From NCBI GenBank assembly GCA_009783365.1, contig WRHG01000027.1, positions 1 to 15,035 of the forward strand: a stretch of 15,035 bases of DNA, given 5' to 3'. A model generated the notes under the pieces. The model had not been told where the DNA came from. It was given only the letters and a program-made list of their open reading frames with translations, and made no database searches. Each line of letters begins with the position of its first letter. Within the stretch, counting starts at the first letter, position 1. This document shows, piece after piece, positions 5,477-15,035 of the stretch. The position numbers and the translations under genes were made by a program. This DNA is from Clostridia bacterium. Lineage in GTDB: Bacteria > Bacillota_A > Clostridia > Christensenellales > Aristaeellaceae.

Positions 5477-6370
5477 TTATTCCATCACAACCTCATAGCC
5501 CTGGCCCAGCCAGCCTGTACCGGCATCGGCGTTGCCCATACCGCCGGACATGGAGTACGCGTCATAGCCCATCAGGCGCAGCACAGCGGTAGTCTGCGAG
5601 GAGGTTTGGCCGCTGTAGCAGTATACGACGATGGTCTTGTCGGCCGGCAGCTGCGACAACGCTTCTTCCATGCCCTGGCCGTAGGGGATGTTGACCGCGC
5701 CTGCGATGTGCCCCGCCTCATAGTCCTCAGCCCGTCGTATAGACAGGATCACATAATTATCATCCTGATCGTCCACAATGGTTTTCACGGTTTCGGCGCT
5801 CAAGTTATAATTCGCCATCGGGGTGCCGTCCAGCGCCATTTTACCGGCAAAGTATTCGGTGATGGTCTCCAAAAGGACTGCGTCGACAGGGCTGCCGGCG
5901 TCGGGCAGCATATGATCCGCGGTTTCAATGTACTTCTCAAAACCCTCTTCCTTCGAGATGGCGTTGTTGAAACCGGACTGTACGTTTTTGGCCATTTTGT
6001 CCGCAATGTTCACCAGCGCCGTCACCTGAGAAGCTGTCTGGCCGGTATAGCAGTACACCATAATGGGCCTGTCATCGGGCAGCGCGTCCAAATTCTCCGG
6101 GATGGACATATCGAAGAAGGACAGGTTTACAGCGCCAATCAGGTGGCCCGCGGCATAATCGTCAGGGCGGCGGATGTCCACGATAAGCATTTCATCGCCA
6201 TTGTCCATCATCGTGAAAAGGTCCGCCGCCGCGATGACGTTCCTGTCGGAGGGAAAGTCTCTGAAGTAGTTGAAAGCCGCCTGATATACCGTGTCGTCCG
6301 CCATGGCGAAGGGAACCAGAAGCGTCGTCAGCATGGCTGCCGAGAGGAGGATGAGCAGTGTTTTTTTCAT
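5477..6370 (-). CDS. Exported tandem-domain rhodanese
   Basis: A 297-residue secreted or membrane-anchored sulfurtransferase. Residues 1-24 are a signal peptide (KK, hydrophobic core, AMA before DD) with a likely cut after Ala24 and no lipobox Cys. Rhodanese domain 1 (about 40-130) carries Cys107 in CYTGQTAS. Domain 2 (about 190-285) carries Cys251 in CYSGQTSS, and both keep the DIRRPDDY/SIRRAEDY and AGH-GAVN motifs. Both domains thus look catalytically competent, unlike classic tandem rhodaneses in which the first is inactive. Rhodaneses move sulfane sulfur through a cysteine persulfide; here this would happen outside the cytoplasm. The ATG is supported by AAAGGAG (plus-strand 6378-6384). 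The upstream neighbour on the same strand is another envelope rhodanese. The physiological donor and acceptor cannot be read from sequence. Confidence 0.92.
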   Translation of the reverse strand: MKKTLLILLSAAMLTTLLVPFAMADDTVYQAAFNYFRDFPSDRNVIAAADLFTMMDNGDEMLIVDIRRPDDYAAGHLIGAVNLSFFDMSIPENLDALPDDRPIMVYCYTGQTASQVTALVNIADKMAKNVQSGFNNAISKEEGFEKYIETADHMLPDAGSPVDAVLLETITEYFAGKMALDGTPMANYNLSAETVKTIVDDQDDNYVILSIRRAEDYEAGHIAGAVNIPYGQGMEEALSQLPADKTIVVYCYSGQTSSQTTAVLRLMGYDAYSMSGGMGNADAGTGWLGQGYEVVME

Positions 6371-6476
6371 GAGAACTCTCCTTTGCCTATTTGTTGATCT
6401 ATCCTAAACCCCGCCGCAGGGCCGGGTTGGATGCGTACTGGCCGTGACCGTTCTTCACCCTCCCGCTTTTGGAAGG

Positions 6477-6504
6477 AAAAACGCCCGGACAGAACCCGGG
6501 GCCC
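6477..6504 (-). terminator. Probable terminator after the lipoprotein rhodanese
   Basis: On the minus strand, GCCCCGG (plus 6496-6502) pairs with CCGGGC (plus 6483-6488) with one bulged C. The stem is short but all G-C, and is followed by GTTTTT (plus 6477-6482). It lies directly after the stop codon. The rest of the 6371-6508 gap holds only the next gene's ribosome site; no confident promoter is visible there. Confidence 0.6.
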
Positions 6505-6508
6505 GCCG

Positions 6509-7426
6509 TCAGGACCCGTCGCGCACGGTGGCCGCGGGATTGGCGCCGGTTGGCATGTCCACAGGGTTCGCGCCGCTTGCTGTCCACTCCACCCAAGCGC
6601 CGTCGTAGATTTTCAGGTTGCGGTATCCGGCGTCGTACAGCCGCAGGAAAGTGACGGCGGCGCGCATGGACGTGCGGCAGTAGAGGATGACCTCGCTTTC
6701 AGCCCGGACCCCTTTTTCGATGTAATTGATCCGCGCGGCCTGGGTGTTGATGAGCGTGCCGTCCTTATAGAAGTTGTTCATGTAGTCGATCATCATGGCG
6801 CCGGGAATTTTGCCTTCGTCCAGATACTCCTGGTTGGAGCGGGTGTCCAACAGGATAACTCCCTCCCGGGGATCGTCCGCCTTGGCGCGTACGGCCCGCA
6901 TGTCCGCCGTGTAGTCACCCTTGCGGTCCGTCGCGGTAAACTCCGCCGGAACCACCTCCGGCAAGGTGTCGGTCATCTCGATTCCCGCCCTTTGGATGGC
7001 GGGCATTCCGCCGTTTACCACCTTCACGTCGTCTTTCCCATACACCAGCATGCTCCACCACAGGCGGGACGCATTCAGGCTGCGGCCTTCGTCGTATATG
7101 ACCACCCGGGTATCGTTGCCGATCCCCGCGCCGCTTAAAACGCCGGTAATCTTCCCCTTGGAAGCCAGCATGTTCTCCACCGGAAGATTGACCAGCACGC
7201 TGCCGACCGGGATGTTGACCGCGCCCGGCACATGGGCGGCGGCATAATCCTCTTCCGCCTGCATGTCGACGATCACAACGCCTTCCTGCCCGATATATTC
7301 AGCAAGCCGCTTCGCCTCTATGATGATTTCATCGGATGCGGCATATGTGGAAGTATCGCATCCGTTCAGCGTCATCAGCATGCACAGGCACAGCCCGAGG
7401 GCAAGCATACGGATCTCTTTTTTCAT
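6509..7426 (-). CDS. Lipoprotein rhodanese (thiosulfate/3-mercaptopyruvate sulfurtransferase-like)
   Basis: A 305-residue lipid-anchored sulfurtransferase. The start ATG at 7426 is chosen over an in-frame upstream start (7483) because AGGAGGA sits at plus 7436-7442 and the protein then begins with a proper lipoprotein signal: KKEIR, a hydrophobic core, and TLNGC with Cys23 as the lipidation site. Two rhodanese domains follow in the classic SseA/TST layout. Domain 1 (about 33-160) has Asp112 where the catalytic Cys would be (IYDEGRS). Domain 2 (about 180-295) has catalytic Cys250 in CRTSMRA. The WCG-type substrate determinants are not obvious, so thiosulfate versus mercaptopyruvate use is open. 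The protein should sit on the outer face of the membrane. It is followed by a terminator and then the exported tandem rhodanese. No strong promoter was found; TAGAAT at plus 7484-7489 (minus strand) is a weak candidate. Confidence 0.92.
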   Translation of the reverse strand: MKKEIRMLALGLCLCMLMTLNGCDTSTYAASDEIIIEAKRLAEYIGQEGVVIVDMQAEEDYAAAHVPGAVNIPVGSVLVNLPVENMLASKGKITGVLSGAGIGNDTRVVIYDEGRSLNASRLWWSMLVYGKDDVKVVNGGMPAIQRAGIEMTDTLPEVVPAEFTATDRKGDYTADMRAVRAKADDPREGVILLDTRSNQEYLDEGKIPGAMMIDYMNNFYKDGTLINTQAARINYIEKGVRAESEVILYCRTSMRAAVTFLRLYDAGYRNLKIYDGAWVEWTASGANPVDMPTGANPAATVRDGS

Positions 7427-7444
7427 ATCACTCAATCCTCCTAC

Positions 7445-7474
7445 AGACAGGCCCATGTCAAGCAGGCCCTGTCT
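7445..7474. repeat. Imperfect inverted repeat between divergent genes
   Basis: AGACAGG (7445-7451) and CCTGTCT (7468-7474) are perfect inverted arms, with two further G-C pairs after one mismatch. It lies just upstream of the ribosome site of the lipoprotein rhodanese gene, so it could be a leader hairpin in that transcript or a protein-binding site. There is no T-run next to it. Confidence 0.5.
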
Positions 7475-7507
7475 TATTTCCACATTCTATGCAAACGGCG
7501 GGCCGGA

Positions 7508-7560: not shown

Positions 7561-9120
7561 TTGCGAAACGTCATCCGCCGAATCAAGCCGCGGCACATCC
7601 TTTGGGCTTATCTGTGCCTGTATGGAGCCGCCAGTTTCGCGACGCTTACGCGCTTTCCCTTCGTACATTCCGACGAGTCCTGGCTGTCCGGCCTGACGCG
7701 CAACATGCTGGAACACGGCGGCGTGTGGGTAACCGAGCCCTTTTTCGATCTGAAACCGCGATACCCCCATGCCATCAAGACCCTGTTTCACCTGTTGCAA
7801 ATGCTGATGCTCCGTTTGTTCGGCTACCAGATATCTTCCTTTCGCCTGCTGTCGCTGGCCGCCGGCATTGCCGCCCTTGCCCTGTTTTACGCCGTACTGC
7901 GGCGGCAGACGCGCAGCCCGTGGTACGCCCTCGTCGGCATGGCGCTGCTTTCCGCGGATGCGCAGTTTGTGTACGCCAGCCACTTTGCGCGGGCTGAAAT
8001 GCTGCTGCTGCTCAGCGCGCTCGGCTGTTTTCTGGCGCTTACCACAGGGGAACGCGGCCATCCGGCGATCGCGGCGGTGATTACAGGGCTGTGCATCGGG
8101 CTGCATCCCAACAGCTTTATGATCGGCGGCATGTGCGGCGCCCTGCTGGTACTCGGCGGGAAACGGCGCCTTAAAGATACCATTCGCCCCCTGGCTCTGT
8201 ACGCCGGCGTTGCGTCCGTTTTCCTGCTGGCGGCAATCGGCCTCACCCTGCGTATGGACGCGCAATTTTTCCGCCACTACTTCAGCCAATACGGATCGGA
8301 TTACCAAGTTCACGGGTCGATACTCGAAAAGCTGATGGAAACCGGACCGTATTTTCAGCGGCTGTGGAATCAAATCTCCGGCACTTACCACACGGCGGAC
8401 ATCCGCTTGCAGCTTCTGCTTTTTGCGGTTGCCGCGCCGTCCGCCCTGGCCCTGCTGCTCCTGAAAAAGAAAACGCTGTTTCGCCCCGGCCTCTCCGCCA
8501 TATTGGGCCTTTGGCTGGCAATGGTCCTCATCGGAAGGTTTGGACAGCCGTATGTGGCGCTCTTCTTTCCCTTTGGCTACCTGCTTGTCATCCAGCTGAT
8601 CCGCTTCACGGGCGCCCGCCGTAAAACGGCCGTCTTGTCCGCTCTGGCGGTGGCGATCGGCTGGCTGTCCCTGGCGCAAATCCTGCCTCCGGTCCGGCAG
8701 CCGGAACAATATGACCGCTACCTGCAAAAAATTGCGGGTGTTGTACCGCCGGACGCCAAAACCCTTGGGAACCTCAATACCGAATATCACTTTCAAAACG
8801 GAATGCTGCTGGATTACCGCAACCTTCCCTACCTTGCGGCGGAAGGCCTGTCCGTTTCCCAGTACCTATCCTCCCGGAAGGTGGAGTACATCCTCTACTC
8901 CAGCGAACTGGAACTGCTGTACAGCCTCCGCCCGCTGTGGAACCACATCTACGGCGACTTGGACTACCTGCCGGAGCTTCAGCGGGTGCTGCGGGAGGAA
9001 TGCACCCTTTTGTACAGCTTTGTCGACAACCAATATGCCAACCGCGTCGTCGGCTACCGGTATACCGGGCGTGAGTTTACCGTAACCATTTACCGGTACG
9101 ACGGGGCCGCCTCCTTTTAA
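7561..9120 (+). CDS. GT-C / family 39-like membrane glycosyltransferase
   Basis: A 519-residue polytopic membrane protein. The first membrane segment is at about 13-31, followed by the acidic Asp38-Glu39 pair (HSDESW) in the first outer loop. That pair is the usual catalytic signature of polyprenyl-phosphate-sugar-dependent GT-C enzymes (PMT/ArnT type). Many hydrophobic segments follow up to about residue 380, then a soluble tail of about 130 residues rich in Tyr and Leu. It probably transfers a sugar from a lipid-phosphate donor to a cell-envelope acceptor; donor and acceptor are unknown. TTG is the start because GGGAGGAG (7547-7554) is correctly spaced. It converges on the flavoprotein gene, with the two stop codons overlapping within TTAA at 9117-9120. 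Nothing ties it functionally to the sulfur genes on either side. Confidence 0.85.
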   Translation: MRNVIRRIKPRHILWAYLCLYGAASFATLTRFPFVHSDESWLSGLTRNMLEHGGVWVTEPFFDLKPRYPHAIKTLFHLLQMLMLRLFGYQISSFRLLSLAAGIAALALFYAVLRRQTRSPWYALVGMALLSADAQFVYASHFARAEMLLLLSALGCFLALTTGERGHPAIAAVITGLCIGLHPNSFMIGGMCGALLVLGGKRRLKDTIRPLALYAGVASVFLLAAIGLTLRMDAQFFRHYFSQYGSDYQVHGSILEKLMETGPYFQRLWNQISGTYHTADIRLQLLLFAVAAPSALALLLLKKKTLFRPGLSAILGLWLAMVLIGRFGQPYVALFFPFGYLLVIQLIRFTGARRKTAVLSALAVAIGWLSLAQILPPVRQPEQYDRYLQKIAGVVPPDAKTLGNLNTEYHFQNGMLLDYRNLPYLAAEGLSVSQYLSSRKVEYILYSSELELLYSLRPLWNHIYGDLDYLPELQRVLREECTLLYSFVDNQYANRVVGYRYTGREFTVTIYRYDGAASF

Positions 9121-10343
9121 ACCAACCCGTTTAAGATGCGCTCGTAAGCGATGTCCTTATGCTCCAGTATCTCCGCCACTTTGCCGTCCCTCACAATGAG
9201 CGCGCACGGTGCATCCGGCGCGCCAAGCATACGCGCAATTCCGCCGGACTTGTACACATCCACGCTCACCACCTCCAAGCGGCTGGCGTTCTCCGCTTCC
9301 AGCTTTTCAAAAACCGGCAGGAGGTCGCGGCAGGCCGCGTCGGCGGCGTTCCAGATATAAACAACCCTGGGCTTTCCGCCGGAAAGGATTTGCCGCTCCA
9401 CAATTTCGCTCTCGGCAATGTATTTTTCGGCGGCATAAGCCGCAACAGCGCCGTCGCCTACGGCGGTAGCCACCTGTTTTAAAAATTTGTCGCACACGTC
9501 GCCCGCCGCAAATACGCCGGGGAGATTGGTTTCCATCCGTTCGTTCACGATGAGATAGCCTTGCCGGTTCATGTCCAGCTGCCCGCTAAAGATCTCGGTA
9601 TTGGGCAGGTACCCGATAAACAGGAAGCAGGTATCTACCGGTACGTCCGTCACTTCGCCGGTTTTCACGTTCTTCAGCGCGACGGCCTTCAAGCGCCCGT
9701 CCCCCTTGAACTCCTCCACCACGGTATTCCAGCGGTACTCCATCTTTTCGTTTGCCAGCGCCTCATTTTTGGCAATCTCGTTGCAGTCCATCCTGCCTTC
9801 CTCATGCATGACGGATACGATTACCCTCTTGGCAAACTTGGTTAGAAACATGCCTTCCTCAATGGCCGCGTCGCCGCTGCCAACCACCATTACGGTTTTG
9901 TCCGTGTTGGCGGCGGCGTCACATGTGGCGCAAAAGGAGATGCCCTTGTCATACAGATAGCAATCCTCTCCCTTAGCGCCGGTCAGCCTGGGTTTCCCGC
10001 CTGTGGCGGCGATAACCGCCCTGGCGTGGTAATCGGTCCGGAAGGTTTCCACCACCTTGGTTCCGCCGCTTAAGCGCACGCCCTTAACGTCGGTCAGCTT
10101 AAACTGAACCCCAAACCGCTTGGCCTGTTTGTGAAACAGTTCCATCAGCCCGGTGCCGGAATCGCCCTCCGGAAAGCCGGGATAGTTTTCAATTTCGCTG
10201 GTGTAGGTAGCCAGACCGCCTACCAGCGATTTTTCGATCAGCAGCGTTTTCAGACGGGCGCGTCCGCAGTAAATGCCCGCCGTAAGCCCCGCGGCGCCGC
10301 CGCCGATGATTACCACATCGTATTGCTCCGTTTTTTTCTCCAT
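9117..10343 (-). CDS. Thioredoxin-reductase-like flavoprotein fused to a degenerate thioredoxin domain
   Basis: A cytoplasmic protein of 408 residues, about 90 longer than ordinary thioredoxin reductases. Residues 1-310 form the reductase: FAD motif GGGAAG at 14-19, redox Cys138-Ala-Thr-Cys141-Asp142, nucleotide motif GSGDAA at 155-160, and the second FAD motif GVFAAGDV ending at 283 (Asp282). The usual HRRxxxR clamp for the NADPH phosphate is replaced by HEEGR (180-184), suggesting NADH or another donor. Residues about 325-408 form a thioredoxin fold in which the WCxxC site reads Asp335-Ala-Ala-Cys338: the first Cys is lost and the second kept. The cis-proline position (Pro379) is preserved. 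The ATG is preceded by a modest AAAGGG. It is the last gene of the transporter operon, so it probably reduces persulfides or thiosulfate-derived sulfur, or recycles TusA. The substrate is inferred. Confidence 0.9.
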   Translation of the reverse strand: MEKKTEQYDVVIIGGGAAGLTAGIYCGRARLKTLLIEKSLVGGLATYTSEIENYPGFPEGDSGTGLMELFHKQAKRFGVQFKLTDVKGVRLSGGTKVVETFRTDYHARAVIAATGGKPRLTGAKGEDCYLYDKGISFCATCDAAANTDKTVMVVGSGDAAIEEGMFLTKFAKRVIVSVMHEEGRMDCNEIAKNEALANEKMEYRWNTVVEEFKGDGRLKAVALKNVKTGEVTDVPVDTCFLFIGYLPNTEIFSGQLDMNRQGYLIVNERMETNLPGVFAAGDVCDKFLKQVATAVGDGAVAAYAAEKYIAESEIVERQILSGGKPRVVYIWNAADAACRDLLPVFEKLEAENASRLEVVSVDVYKSGGIARMLGAPDAPCALIVRDGKVAEILEHKDIAYERILNGLV

Positions 10344-10363: not shown

Positions 10364-10387
10364 AGGAGCGGGAAAGCCCCCGCTCCT
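10364..10387 (-). other. Intercistronic hairpin between transporter C-half and flavoprotein
   Basis: AGGAGCGGG (10364-10372) and CCCGCTCCT (10379-10387) form a perfect 9-bp stem with a 6-base loop. It overlaps the stop codon of the upstream gene. No T-run follows on the minus strand, so it is more likely an mRNA processing or stability element, or one that lowers downstream expression, than a terminator. Confidence 0.6.
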
Positions 10388-10934
10388 ACATAAAGAACTT
10401 CGCCAGCAGCTTGCTGCCCACAAAAGCGCCCGCGAACAGGAAGACGGCGTATACCCAGCCGGACACGGACATGGACGCGATGCCGCTGAACAGCGCGCCG
10501 ATGTTGCAGCCAAAAGCCAGCCTGGCGCCATATCCCATCACAAAACCGCCAAGCACCGCAGCCACAACCTGGCGCAGCGATTTGATTTTTTTGAACTTAA
10601 ACTGGGAGGCCAGCAACGTGGCGGCCAGCGCGCCCAGGATAACGCCCAGGTTGCGCATTGTGCCCGGATCGTTGAAGAAGCCTGCGTCCAGCGTTGCCTG
10701 AGCGCCGGAACCGCTGAAATAGTACCACTGATCCACATTGCCGCCGAATAACCGGTACAGCCACGCGCCCCAATTGGCAAACGTGCCCGAAACGCCCCAA
10801 GGGTCGCCGGTAACCGCCAGTGTAACCACCTGAAAAATCGACAGCAGGATCGCGCCGGCAAGATATGTAAACGGATTTTTAAAAATCATCACATAAAACT
10901 TGTTCTTGCCAAGCTTCGTAAAAAGCGCCTGCAT
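10386..10934 (-). CDS. YeeE/YedE-family transporter, C-terminal half
   Basis: A 182-residue membrane protein matching the second half of the YeeE/YedE (TsuA-type) sulfur transporter family. The family motif GARLAFGCNIGALFSGIA contains Cys143, which corresponds to the third conserved cysteine of full-length YeeE. Several membrane segments are visible (about 23-42, 85-105, 120-140, 150-175). The family imports thiosulfate, with conserved cysteines lining the path, and a TusA-like partner works at the inner face. Here the protein is a separate polypeptide from the N-terminal half (11268-11969), with a TusA gene between them. ATG at 10934 follows AGGTGAG at a spacing of 8. It probably pairs with the N-half to make one pore. 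Selenium-type YedE function is less likely because no selD-like gene is near. Confidence 0.88.
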   Translation of the reverse strand: MQALFTKLGKNKFYVMIFKNPFTYLAGAILLSIFQVVTLAVTGDPWGVSGTFANWGAWLYRLFGGNVDQWYYFSGSGAQATLDAGFFNDPGTMRNLGVILGALAATLLASQFKFKKIKSLRQVVAAVLGGFVMGYGARLAFGCNIGALFSGIASMSVSGWVYAVFLFAGAFVGSKLLAKFFM

Positions 10935-10987
10935 GAATCACACTCACCTGCCCTTCCGTCCATCCGCATGCCCGGCACGCGATAACG

Positions 10988-11215
10988 CTACTTGGTTTTT
11001 TCGATGACAACTTCCCACTCGCCGTCGTCGACCTCTTCGATCTCCACGTTATGGCCTTGCTTGCGCGCCCATTCGGGAATGTTTTTCATGGCGCAGCTAT
11101 GATCGATGCTAACCACCAAAATGTCGCCCACAGCCAGCTCCGCCATCTTCTTTTCGGTCTTCATCAGAGGTACGGGACAAGCCTCTCCCAAACAATCCAA
11201 TGTAAATTCCGCCAT
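10988..11215 (-). CDS. TusA/YeeD-family sulfur carrier protein
   Basis: A 75-residue cytoplasmic protein of the TusA/SirA/YeeD family. The signature DCLGEACPVPLM gives the persulfide-carrying Cys13 in the CPxP motif, and a second Cys8 lies near it. A further Cys41 in DHSC is shared with the second TusA of this window. Such proteins take sulfur as a cysteine persulfide and hand it to other enzymes. YeeD types work with YeeE during thiosulfate uptake. The location between the two halves of the transporter makes a direct partnership very likely. ATG is supported by AAGGAGG just upstream. The exact donor (transporter-delivered thiosulfate or a rhodanese persulfide) cannot be settled here. Confidence 0.93.
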   Translation of the reverse strand: MAEFTLDCLGEACPVPLMKTEKKMAELAVGDILVVSIDHSCAMKNIPEWARKQGHNVEIEEVDDGEWEVVIEKTK

Positions 11216-11267
11216 GGTTCATTTCCTCCTTCGTACCTTATCATTTTACCGGTGCGCATACCCCCGG

Positions 11268-11969
11268 CTATTCCTCGGATGCACCCATTTTTTTTCGTTC
11301 CCACAGCATTGCCGCGCGGTACAGGCACAGGATCACCAGCAACTGAATGACCACGGCGCCGGTCCAGCCGAATACGTCGGGCAGAAAAATCTTGGGGCCA
11401 TGCACGATGAAGTGCTCTTTCCACCAGCCATAGTGGGCCGCGCCCACCAGCGAGCCGACCACGAAGAACAGCAGCGAAAGGAATTGCATGGAAAAGCCTT
11501 CTCCGACGCGCATCAGCGTTCCTGACGCGCAGCCACCCGCGATGACCATGCCGATCCCAAAGATGAACGCGCCGAATACAGTCGCGAAGCTGATGGGAAC
11601 AACATAGCTCTGCCCCGGCATGGGCAGCCCGTTTTGCACCGCGCCATACTGGATAGCGGCAAACATAACGGTTGTGGCGGCAAAGGCGATCAGCACCGCG
11701 CGGGTAACCGAGGTGCTTCCCGTGATCACCGGATCGCGCATGGACGCCGTGAAGCAGAAACGCGACTTTTGCAGGATGAACCCGAAGATGGCGCCTGTCA
11801 TCCAATAAAAGCCAAGGTTTTGCGAGCGGTATGCCTGCACGACGCCAATGACGACCGCCGCCAGGACAACCAGAATACCGAAAGGAATTTGATTTCGCTT
11901 GGGCTTGCGCTGCGGCCGGGCCCGCGCGGCGCGGATGGGGGACGCGGCTTGGTTGGTTGCTTCAGACAT
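11268..11969 (-). CDS. YeeE/YedE-family transporter, N-terminal half
   Basis: A 233-residue membrane protein and first gene of the operon. After a basic cytoplasmic tail of about 35 residues (rich in Arg, Lys, Pro), about five membrane segments follow. The family motifs KSRFCFTASMRD with Cys72 and GGCASGTLMRVGEG with Cys147 match the first two conserved cysteines of YeeE. The 75-residue distance between them is close to that in known full-length transporters. The third cysteine is on the separate C-half protein. The start is ATG 11969, because GGGAGGTGATC (plus 11973-11983) is the ribosome site; a longer frame start at 11978 lies inside it. It is transcribed divergently from the LysR gene, which is its probable regulator. 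Expected role: import of thiosulfate or a related sulfur compound together with its partner half. Confidence 0.9.
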   Translation of the reverse strand: MSEATNQAASPIRAARARPQRKPKRNQIPFGILVVLAAVVIGVVQAYRSQNLGFYWMTGAIFGFILQKSRFCFTASMRDPVITGSTSVTRAVLIAFAATTVMFAAIQYGAVQNGLPMPGQSYVVPISFATVFGAFIFGIGMVIAGGCASGTLMRVGEGFSMQFLSLLFFVVGSLVGAAHYGWWKEHFIVHGPKIFLPDVFGWTGAVVIQLLVILCLYRAAMLWERKKMGASEE

Positions 11970-12209: not shown

Positions 12210-12232
12210 CGGATAACTTGGAGGGAAGCGCA

Positions 12233-13138
12233 ATGCAGATCGAGCATCTTCGTCTGTTTCACAAGGCGGCGACGCTGGGGAGCATTTCCAACGCCGCTGA
12301 GGTTTCCCATATTTCCCAGTCCGCGCTGAGCCAGCAGATTCAACGGCTGGAGCAAGAGCTTGGAGCGGAGTTGCTTTGGCGCAGCAACAAAGGCGTCGTA
12401 TTGACGGAAGCGGGAACCATAGTGGAAAAATATGCCGAGCGCTTTATCATCCTGCAGGACAATATGCTTGCCGACCTGTCTACCATGCTCAGCCAGCCGG
12501 CAAGCCGTACTACGCTCCACGTGGCCGCGTCGCCGGTGGTGGGGGTGTACGGGCTTCCCTGCACGATGTTCCGGGTCAAAACCGCCTTTCCGGACGTTAC
12601 CTTCAACCTGACGACCCGCCCCTCGCGGGATGCGGAGAACGAGGTGCTGCAGGGCGAAAGCGATATCGGATTTATCATCGGGCCGCCGCAGGGCAAGGAT
12701 CTGGTTCACAAACGGGTGTACAGCGACCCCGTTTGCCTGGTGGCCGCGGAAGCATACCCGGTGGAACGGCAGATGACCATGGACGGTTTACAAGCCTTTC
12801 CGCTGGTTGTACATTCTGTGCGCAGCAGCCTGTACGGCCTCATCGCGGAATATTTTGAGCGGATAGGGCGCAGCTTTTCCAGGTATAACGTCCTGTTTCA
12901 CTTGGACACGGCGGAATCGGTTAAGTCCTCGGTGCTGCAAAGCCACGGGCTTGCTTTTCTGCCCTATTTGGCCATCAAAAAGGAGCTTTACCTGAAACAG
13001 CTGAAGCGGATTGAACTGGAGAATTTCGATTTGAATTATGACGTGCACATCATCTACAGGCAGAAAAAAAGGACGGAGGACTTGCCGTACCGCATCGCCG
13101 AATACTTTTCGCAGCTCGGCAGCGACGCTTTCTGTTAA
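12233..13138 (+). CDS. LysR-family transcriptional regulator (CysL/CysB-like position)
   Basis: A 301-residue LysR-type regulator. Residues 1-60 form the helix-turn-helix (EHLRLFHKAATLGSISNAAE, then SQSALSQQIQRLE and LTEAG), and about 88-295 the two-lobed effector-binding domain. The start is ATG 12233, with GGAGGG at 12220-12225 as ribosome site; an upstream in-frame TTG (12218) lies at the edge of that site. It is divergent from the transporter/TusA operon across 263 bases holding two inverted repeats, the standard LysR arrangement. It therefore probably senses a sulfur metabolite and activates that operon while limiting itself. Its stop codon overlaps the stop of the convergent second TusA gene in TTAA. 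The effector is not predictable from sequence. Confidence 0.94.
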   Translation: MQIEHLRLFHKAATLGSISNAAEVSHISQSALSQQIQRLEQELGAELLWRSNKGVVLTEAGTIVEKYAERFIILQDNMLADLSTMLSQPASRTTLHVAASPVVGVYGLPCTMFRVKTAFPDVTFNLTTRPSRDAENEVLQGESDIGFIIGPPQGKDLVHKRVYSDPVCLVAAEAYPVERQMTMDGLQAFPLVVHSVRSSLYGLIAEYFERIGRSFSRYNVLFHLDTAESVKSSVLQSHGLAFLPYLAIKKELYLKQLKRIELENFDLNYDVHIIYRQKKRTEDLPYRIAEYFSQLGSDAFC

Positions 13139-13359
13139 GGGTCCGGGACGGTGACGGTGATTTCCCATACGCCGGGAGCCGCTTCCGCTGCGCCATACAA
13201 CAGGTTTTTCTTTTTGCAGTAGTCCTCAATGGAGCGCGGTACGCAGGAATGGTCGGACATAAGCAGGACGCTGCCCCCAGGCTTTACGGTTTTCAGCCGG
13301 TTTTGAAGACGCATGACGGGGACCGGGCAGATGTCCCCCAAACAATCCAGTATGACCAT
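13135..13359 (-). CDS. Second TusA-family sulfur carrier
   Basis: A 74-residue TusA-like protein. DCLGDICPVPVMRLQN gives Cys11 in the CPxP persulfide motif plus nearby Cys6, and Cys39 lies in SDHSC as in the other TusA. A longer frame start at 13389 is rejected because the ATG at 13359 has AGGGGA upstream and begins directly at the family's VILDCLG. Overall similarity to the operon TusA looks moderate, suggesting paralogues with different partners rather than a fresh duplication. It has its own extended -10 promoter, converges on the LysR gene and diverges from the ATP-grasp gene. Expected role: relay of sulfane sulfur in the cytoplasm, possibly to an acceptor different from that of the first TusA. 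Confidence 0.92.
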   Translation of the reverse strand: MVILDCLGDICPVPVMRLQNRLKTVKPGGSVLLMSDHSCVPRSIEDYCKKKNLLYGAAEAAPGVWEITVTVPDP

Positions 13360-13421
13360 GTGTCCCCTTTCTGTGCAAAGGCGCATCAACGTTACATGCT
13401 TCGCGCGGCGCGGTCCATCCC

Positions 13422-14754: not shown

Positions 14755-14796
14755 CCTAATGCCCGCGCAAACGCGCGGGCATTAGGCCCCTTTTTT
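14755..14796 (+). terminator. Strong Rho-independent terminator after the ATP-grasp gene
   Basis: CCTAATGCCCGCG (14755-14767) pairs perfectly with CGCGGGCATTAGG (14774-14786). One further C-G pair closes a 4-base loop, giving a 14-bp stem. CCCC and six T follow (14787-14796). The rest of the 14685-14836 gap shows no gene. Confidence 0.95.
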
Positions 14797-14836
14797 GTAC
14801 TGCCAATCACGGCTTCGTTTCATCGCCGTTATTGAT

Positions 14837-15035
14837 CTAGGGTTGTTCGGCTGGTTCCGCGCCGCTTTCGACGGCCGGCGAGGCGGTTTGCTTGGAGCTG
14901 CTGTTCCCGCCGCCGTTGTTGCTTCCGCCGCCGTTATTGGTTCCGCCGCCGTTGTTGGTTCCGCCGCCGTTGTTGGTTCCGCCGCCGTTGCTGGCCCCGC
15001 CGCTGTTGGTGCCGCCGTTGTTGGTTCCGCCGCCG
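14837..15035 (-). CDS. C-terminal end of a protein with Gly/Thr/Asn-rich repeats (5' part outside window)
   Basis: An open minus-strand frame of at least 65 codons runs from the right edge to TAG at 14837-14839. It encodes units of Gly-Gly-Gly-Thr-Asn-Asn, some with Ser or Ala changes and two shortened to five residues, then a Ser/Lys/Ala/Glu/Pro tail ending in AEQP. It has no start codon in the window because the gene begins beyond it. Evidence that it is coding: repeat units of 18 bases (and 15) keep the frame, variation is mostly silent or conservative, and the frame ends cleanly. The tail looks disordered and flexible, as in linkers or C-terminal tails of surface or regulatory proteins. 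The function of the main protein cannot be judged. The hairpin at 14755-14786 lies downstream but has no T-run on this strand. Confidence 0.65.
   Translation of the reverse strand, partial: GGGTNNGGTNSGGASNGGGTNNGGGTNNGGGTNNGGGSNNGGGNSSSKQTASPAVESGAEPAEQP
14903..15035. repeat. Tandem 18-bp repeats (in-frame minisatellite)
   Basis: About seven to eight units of the form GGTTCCGCCGCCGTTGTT occur on the plus strand, three nearly identical in a row at about 14933-14986 and others degenerate or 15 bases long. They code for hexapeptides on the minus strand and continue past the window edge. Confidence 0.9.

Follow-up and report, generated by a model that had tools for sequence, protein, structure and literature searches.

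Does a membrane transporter that is encoded as two separate halves, with the gene of its sulfur carrier lying between them, depend on that gene order? The locus that raises this question lies in a stretch of 15,035 nucleotides (the window; contig WRHG01000027.1 of a Clostridia bacterium), in which the initial annotation had placed, at 10386..11969, a YeeE-type sulfur transporter split into two genes with tusA between the halves. It had further proposed that the two halves form one pore and that the order of translation possibly builds a unit of N-half, TusA and C-half. Published work is cited below for those parts of each paper that were covered.

Results

Organization of the locus

On the minus strand the genes follow each other in the order N-half, tusA, C-half and then a gene for a TrxB-like reductase (Table 1). 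The N-half matches positions 1-153 of the Pfam profile Sulf_transp (PF04143) with an E-value of 4.9e-30 (105.6 bits) and the C-half positions 169-310 with 2.5e-32 (113.1 bits), so that both pass the gathering score of 27 and are members of the superfamily; the tusA product matches Pfam TusA with an E-value of 2e-26, and E-values of this size mean that none of the three matches arose by chance. The split arrangement first annotated here is thus borne out in its coordinates and in the complementarity of the two Pfam matches, and judged from sequence the halves correspond to the complementary halves of one YeeE-type transporter. Gaps of 52 and 53 bases separate the three genes, so that no stop codon overlaps the next start; GGAGG precedes tusA, and the N-half has an alternative GTG start 9 bases upstream of its ATG. 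By a simple hydropathy scan the N-half has five strongly hydrophobic segments and the C-half four. Cysteines are found at positions 72, 147 and 215 of the N-half, only at 143 in the C-half, and at 8, 13 and 41 of TusA; the initial annotation had named all of the transporter cysteines except Cys215.

Table 1. Features of the window, with the TGA-at-143 loci of relatives in the last line.
Feature	Coordinates	Strand	Remarks
Two-domain rhodanese	5477..6370	-	N-terminal signal peptide (by eye)
3-mercaptopyruvate-sulfurtransferase-like rhodanese	6509..7483	-	N-terminal lipoprotein-like signal (by eye)
PMT-like membrane glycosyltransferase	7561-9120	+	23.5 bits vs cut-off 22.7; between reductase and rhodaneses
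TrxB-like NAD(P)H/FAD thiol reductase	9117..10343	-	CATC (138-141); adjoins C-half downstream
C-half of YeeE/YedE transporter	10386..10934	-	182 aa, Cys143, Gln111
tusA, TusA-type sulfur carrier	10988..11215	-	75 aa, CPxP motif, Cys13; Pfam match
N-half of YeeE/YedE (Sulf_transp) transporter	11268..11969	-	233 aa from ATG; Pfam, NCBIfam and PDB matches
LysR-type regulator, divergent	12218..13138	+	nearest NCBIfam model selenium-metabolism LysR, 166 bits vs cut-off 250: non-member
Second TusA-type gene, beyond LysR gene	13135..13389	-	
Low-complexity Thr/Ala/Glu/Pro repeat	14782-15033	-	window's end
TGA-at-143 loci L104, L105, L107, L110, L111, L113-L117	C-half genes at ~1500-2020 of these loci		

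Two side observations concern the neighbouring genes. The C-terminal thioredoxin match of the TrxB-like protein is weak and has a single Cys338 without a CxxC motif, a position occupied by Ser in 65/119 relatives and by Cys in 32/119. The two rhodaneses (5477-7483) appear to be exported, and similar pairs trail the TrxB-like gene in many spirochaete loci.

Comparison with known transporters

HMMER alignments to the StYeeE structure 6leo paired residues 57-184 of the N-half with residues 7-129 (E 2.1e-17) and residues 93-172 of the C-half with 243-322 (E 7.1e-9), which makes Cys72 equivalent to Cys22, Cys147 to Cys91 and the C-half Cys143 to Cys293. In YeeE itself Cys293 is the first, Cys91 the second and Cys22 the third cysteine of the path, with YeeD Cys17 as the fourth, and the crystal structure 8K1R of YeeE with YeeD has contacts at Arg28, Arg98, Glu101 and Glu261 (PMC11073785, part covered). 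We take TusA Cys13 as the equivalent of StYeeD Cys17 from its CPxP motif. Arg78, Arg154 and Glu157 of the N-half occupy the places of the first three docking residues and Gln111 of the C-half that of Glu261, so that the N-half carries three of the four, all conserved, and the C-half the fourth, which is not.

The window system therefore shares with YeeE/TsuA and YeeD/TsuB of Spirochaeta thermophila and E. coli (PDB 6LEO, 8J4C, 8K1R) the N-to-C order of the halves, the hallmark of three conserved cysteines, the docking Arg, Arg and Glu, and an adjacent gene for a TusA-like partner with a CPxP cysteine, here between the halves. It differs from YeeE/TsuA in having two chains rather than one, in the Gln that replaces Glu261, and in an N-half that is about 50 residues longer in front, including a hydrophobic segment. 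Neither half reaches the NCBIfam cut-offs for TsuA/YeeE (NF052577, 400; NF041049, 645), with 72.3 and 59.9 bits at best, although one chain could hardly do so because the transporter here consists of two; TusA scores 52.1 bits against a TsuB/YeeD cut-off of 147.5. The closest curated model for both halves is FdhT/YedE (NF033796), with 108 and 102 bits (TsuA 72 and 60), and here too the pair stays outside the family, which is defined by one chain above 350 bits, being permuted and on two chains. Unlike in the window, the FdhT order is swapped within one chain: the C-half matches positions 5-159 of the model and the N-half 179-383, which reflects a circular permutation between FdhT and the TsuA-like joins. 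The outcome that the initial annotation had set against its own reading, halves that align over their full length to independent complete transporters, was not seen in the Pfam, NCBIfam and PDB comparisons.

Half-size pairs are known as well. In the parts of the two papers covered, a PmpA/PmpB heterodimer is proposed (PMC11582611), and YedE1 and YedE2 are reported to take up zero-valent sulfur jointly, neither doing so alone and the conserved Cys being essential (PMC10812762). The window pair resembles these in being made of complementary half-proteins with a proposed pairing or a reported joint function. Each PmpAB/YedE1E2 protein, however, has about 130 aa, four helices and a single conserved Cys, and the two genes are mostly neighbours; with 233 and 182 aa, three path cysteines (two of them on the N-half) and an intervening tusA, the window pair falls outside that group. 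Split halves and partnership with TusA are both already known.

Distribution and conservation of the gene order

The same order was then found in many other genomes, as the initial annotation had suggested searching for. Relatives were taken from the best 80 of 577 confirmed C-half relatives (the named loci) and from whole-genome loci, giving a non-random sample of 185 loci and, with identical sequences merged, 175 distinct rows (L165 holds two); about 130 places were listed in a phylum survey (counted by eye), of which 71 were examined. A count of N-half homologues came to 2,682. Both halves were present in 161 rows, the other 14, without a nearby N-half, being omitted (five near-family loci cut at contig ends and nine distant ones on 3.5 kb loci). 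Among the 161 listed rows, 126 have the layout N-tusA-C (125 plus L159, reassigned on its TGA stop), six N-C, six C-N, 21 fused N-C and two fused C-N. The 126 N-tusA-C loci carry one tusA copy in 110 cases, two in 15 and three in one. The near family, made up of the 110 rows most similar to the window (C-half above 200 bits), comprises 102 N-tusA-C rows, three N-C rows and five cut at a contig end, which leaves 102/105 uncut rows with this order and both halves together in all 105. Within the best 80 of 577, N-half, one to three TusA and C-half follow in order in 75/80, the remaining five loci beginning near a contig end. The N-tusA-C order is common, not rare.

A C-half-type match in any layout was present in 99/398 genomes drawn from the phylum of G001 (the genome that holds L001) and in 24/296 from the phylum of the spirochaete relative G005. 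In a tree of the window and 109 of the 161 rows (all rows of other layouts, the ten rows with the TGA described below and part of the rest), N-tusA-C was recorded in Bacillota, Spirochaetota, Chloroflexota and Latescibacterota; it did not form one clade but required 13 changes, in a quick search with an unsure root and an outgroup split across a branch. N-tusA-C is an old and widespread operon layout, and no order of origin among the layouts is claimed on a tree whose root is unsure. The initial annotation knew of no description of this exact order, and none was found in the literature searched, which largely excludes subscription papers, nor in the covered parts of PMC13047784, PMC13293266, PMC9431562 and PMC10536192, and YTD clusters (yeeE, tusA, dsrE-like) have a single yeeE gene in the published descriptions covered. 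As a layout in genomes, however, it is nothing unusual.

Cys72 and Cys147 are each found in 101/102 near N-tusA-C rows listed (one gap each) and in 24/24 far ones, and position 143 is Cys in 92/102 near rows, an in-frame TGA in the other 10/102, and Cys in 24/24 far rows. Together with the 6leo alignments this conservation supports the initial assignment of the three path cysteines to the two halves, for which TusA is the expected partner. TusA Cys13 is present in 142/143 in-between copies, with one gap; the Cys72 equivalent is missing in 9/21 fused N-C rows. Of the docking residues, Arg78 occurs in 101/102 near but only 16/24 far rows, Arg154 in 102/102 and 22/24, and Glu157 in 102/102 and 24/24. 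The Glu261 site, Gln in the window, is variable in the family; Gly stands there in 30/102 rows, which may be an alignment shift and serves here solely to describe the site as variable.

The TrxB-like gene accompanies the unit on the same strand in 97/102 near N-tusA-C rows listed and lies downstream in 74/74 named loci with room, and is present in 0/24 far N-tusA-C loci. Among the same best 80 of 577, a divergent LysR gene was seen in 53/66 loci with enough upstream DNA, a TusA gene upstream of the N-half in 52/66 with room, and each rhodanese type downstream in 19/58 with enough DNA.

Fused and rearranged relatives

Fusions of the halves occur naturally in both orders. Loci L126 (1501-2700) and L127 (811-2016) have tusA, then one frame with the C-half before the N-half, then the TrxB-like gene, and these fused proteins match FdhT/YedE in a single stretch, 2-383 and 3-383 of 387, with 200 and 193 bits (cut-off 350). 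They group in the tree (SH-aLRT 100) with L122-L125, where the same C-half and then the same N-half have genes of their own between tusA and the TrxB-like gene (order C-N). N-C fusions as in TsuA are found in L146-L153 and others; tusA precedes the fused gene in 11 of the 21 such rows, and no tusA lies in range in the other 10. No fusion of TusA to a half was found in the loci examined. An apparent N-half/TusA fusion in L159 was rejected on a TGA stop before the TusA start, as were several other "fusions" in read-through frames with TGA stops between the genes.

A probable selenocysteine form in Moorella-like relatives

Ten of the 99 matching genomes from the phylum of G001 carry a C-half frame interrupted only by a TGA, which falls exactly on position 143 (G-[TGA]-N-I-G); the corresponding codon of the window is a normal one for Cys. 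All ten genomes score above the curated cut-off for selB and selD and contain a tRNA-Sec of at least 70 bits. In six of the ten sequences, chosen to omit near-copies, same-residue pairs agree in their synonymous codon in 522/1112 cases upstream of the TGA (47%), in 36/70 at codons 1-5 after it, in 107/115 at codons 7-15 (93%) and in 88/182 at codons 16-36 (48%). Of 138 windows of nine codons, the best covers codons 6-14 after the TGA, with full agreement. Bacterial SECIS elements sit just downstream of the TGA, where the codons are frozen here. A shared hairpin with the same stem is predicted in 7/10, while L104, L105 and L107, near-copies of one another, fold otherwise in the stretch used. 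With an in-frame TGA, a SECIS-like element, SelB, tRNA-Sec and SelD all present at the sequence level, the TGA likely encodes selenocysteine in these ten relatives. These relatives are Moorella-like; L113 has an N-half with 95% identity to a Neomoorella glycerini protein. Locus L101 has TGC in place of TGA and a nearly intact SECIS-like stretch (45 bases after), and may have reverted recently from selenocysteine to cysteine. A TGA in L177 was rejected as a selenocysteine site because it falls close to the start of the C-half frame, away from the Cys position. When 26 genomes from the class to which one of the ten belongs were searched with the motif as a pattern, four matches came up, all known already, against two with a reversed control pattern, and selenocysteine-specific NCBIfam models, TsoY included, gave none at E 0.001 with two of these C-halves.

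A review of selenoproteomes includes a selenocysteine form of YeeE/YedE with the motif GUxSG (PMC13188914), and the family is also named, without a motif, in the part of PMC9312934 covered. The former is like the present case in its predicted selenocysteine and its superfamily, but GUxSG fits the second cysteine (GGCASG, 147 here) whereas the TGA here is at the first (GUNIG, 143), as far as the covered part of that paper goes. No description of selenocysteine at the first cysteine was found in the literature searched, subscription papers being largely outside its coverage.

Discussion

The three genes quite probably encode a heterodimeric importer of reduced sulfur of the YeeE/YedE type together with its cytoplasmic carrier, in an order that assembly would not need. 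That the halves assemble into one pore, as first proposed, we infer from their complementarity, the conserved cysteines and, as good evidence that separate halves meet in one complex, the natural fusions in both orders. Two computations bear little on the point: AlphaFold2 models of each half alone (27 and 29 aligned rows) had mean pLDDT values of 57.0 and 56.8, too poor for searching, and Gaussian DCA with APC on 97 paired rows, with an effective number of 71.5, put one N:C pair in its top 1000 (615 within the N-half, 373 within the TrxB-like protein, 0 within the C-half) and has no power either way.

The second proposal, that the order matters because N-half, TusA and C-half co-assemble from one mRNA with TusA as an assembly factor or permanent subunit, fared less well and now appears unlikely. 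It could draw on the constancy of the order in the near family and its presence in several phyla of the tree, and on docking residues divided three to one between the halves. Against it, no stop codon overlaps a start, two or three tusA genes are present in 16/126 loci, the six N-C rows have no TusA match of at least 35 bits between the halves, six further rows have the order C-N, the fused N-C rows have tusA in front or not in range, and TusA is not fused to either half in any locus examined, the L159 candidate having its stop. Since other lineages do with C-N, N-C and fused forms, the order would be unnecessary for assembly; its stability in the near family (102/105 uncut rows listed) nevertheless makes some benefit plausible, such as matched synthesis, and the N-tusA-C order may give balanced synthesis of the partners.

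In the heterodimeric importer, substrate would enter at Cys143 of the C-half and then pass Cys147 and Cys72 of the N-half, where Cys13 of TusA, docked on a surface formed mainly by the N-half, would take it at the inner mouth. TusA would retain the sulfane sulfur, and the TrxB-like reductase might free the sulfur or regenerate the thiol with NAD(P)H, a role that is not general, given that its gene is absent at the 24 far-family loci. Going by TsuA and TusA the substrate is most likely thiosulfate; polysulfide or other sulfane sulfur is possible, a second guess suggested by the activity of YedE1E2 and the neighbouring rhodaneses.

That the pair, like YedE/FdhT, carries a selenium compound from which selenoproteins or selenouridine are made is doubtful. 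The best NCBIfam model of both halves and the resemblance of the window LysR to a selenium-linked LysR speak for it, as does selD, over the cut-off in 34/44 genomes and in 24/34 of those with the Cys form, so that such a role is possible in many. Against it, every model score falls well short of the curated cut-off of 350, and the genes around the pair belong to sulfur metabolism (TusA, two rhodaneses, a thiol reductase). In addition, selD is not over the cut-off in 10/34 Cys-form genomes, including G001 and G002, whereas the YedE described by Lin et al. reportedly keeps almost exclusively to genomes with SelD (PMC5322559, part covered); selB is over the cut-off in 19/34 of the same Cys-form genomes. 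The selD absences are soft because genome completeness is not given. How soft can be seen in G005, which has selB and tRNA-Sec over the cut-off and selD not. The C-halves closest to the window are those of L001 in G001 (87% identity), L002 in G002 (80%) and L003 (80%, outside the selD check); selD, selB and tRNA-Sec are all below the cut-off in G001 (1.5 Mb) and G002 (2.1 Mb), completeness again not being given, which makes selenium less likely for the window.

A further scheme has sulfane sulfur handed on covalently rather than through an ion-channel-like path: a persulfide would move from Cys143 (selenocysteine in the Moorella-like relatives) to Cys147, Cys72 and TusA Cys13 in an obligate trio whose order is kept by co-translational assembly, with selenocysteine allowing a faster nucleophilic attack at the entry. 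As a whole this scheme has a small chance of being right. That each half is an independent homodimeric transporter is highly improbable, for although the halves share an internal repeat, with the N-half aligning weakly to the second half of 6leo and a profile comparison matching 26 columns at the Cys motif (26% probability), neither half has all three conserved cysteines, one being missing from the N-half and two from the C-half, the two halves co-occur in every uncut near-family row listed and are fused in both orders elsewhere, and single YedE1E2 halves are reported inactive in the part of PMC10812762 covered.

Two further points concern the family. Full-length transporters of the FdhT type and of the TsuA type look as if the same two half-genes had been joined in opposite orders, and the series of layouts, from split N-tusA-C, N-C and C-N to fused N-C and C-N, lays the circular permutation of a membrane protein open to reconstruction. 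Selenocysteine at the first cysteine would moreover be difficult to account for unless that atom takes part in the chemistry, so that the Moorella-like bacteria could help to decide whether this cysteine of YeeE merely hydrogen-bonds thiosulfate in passing or reacts with it.
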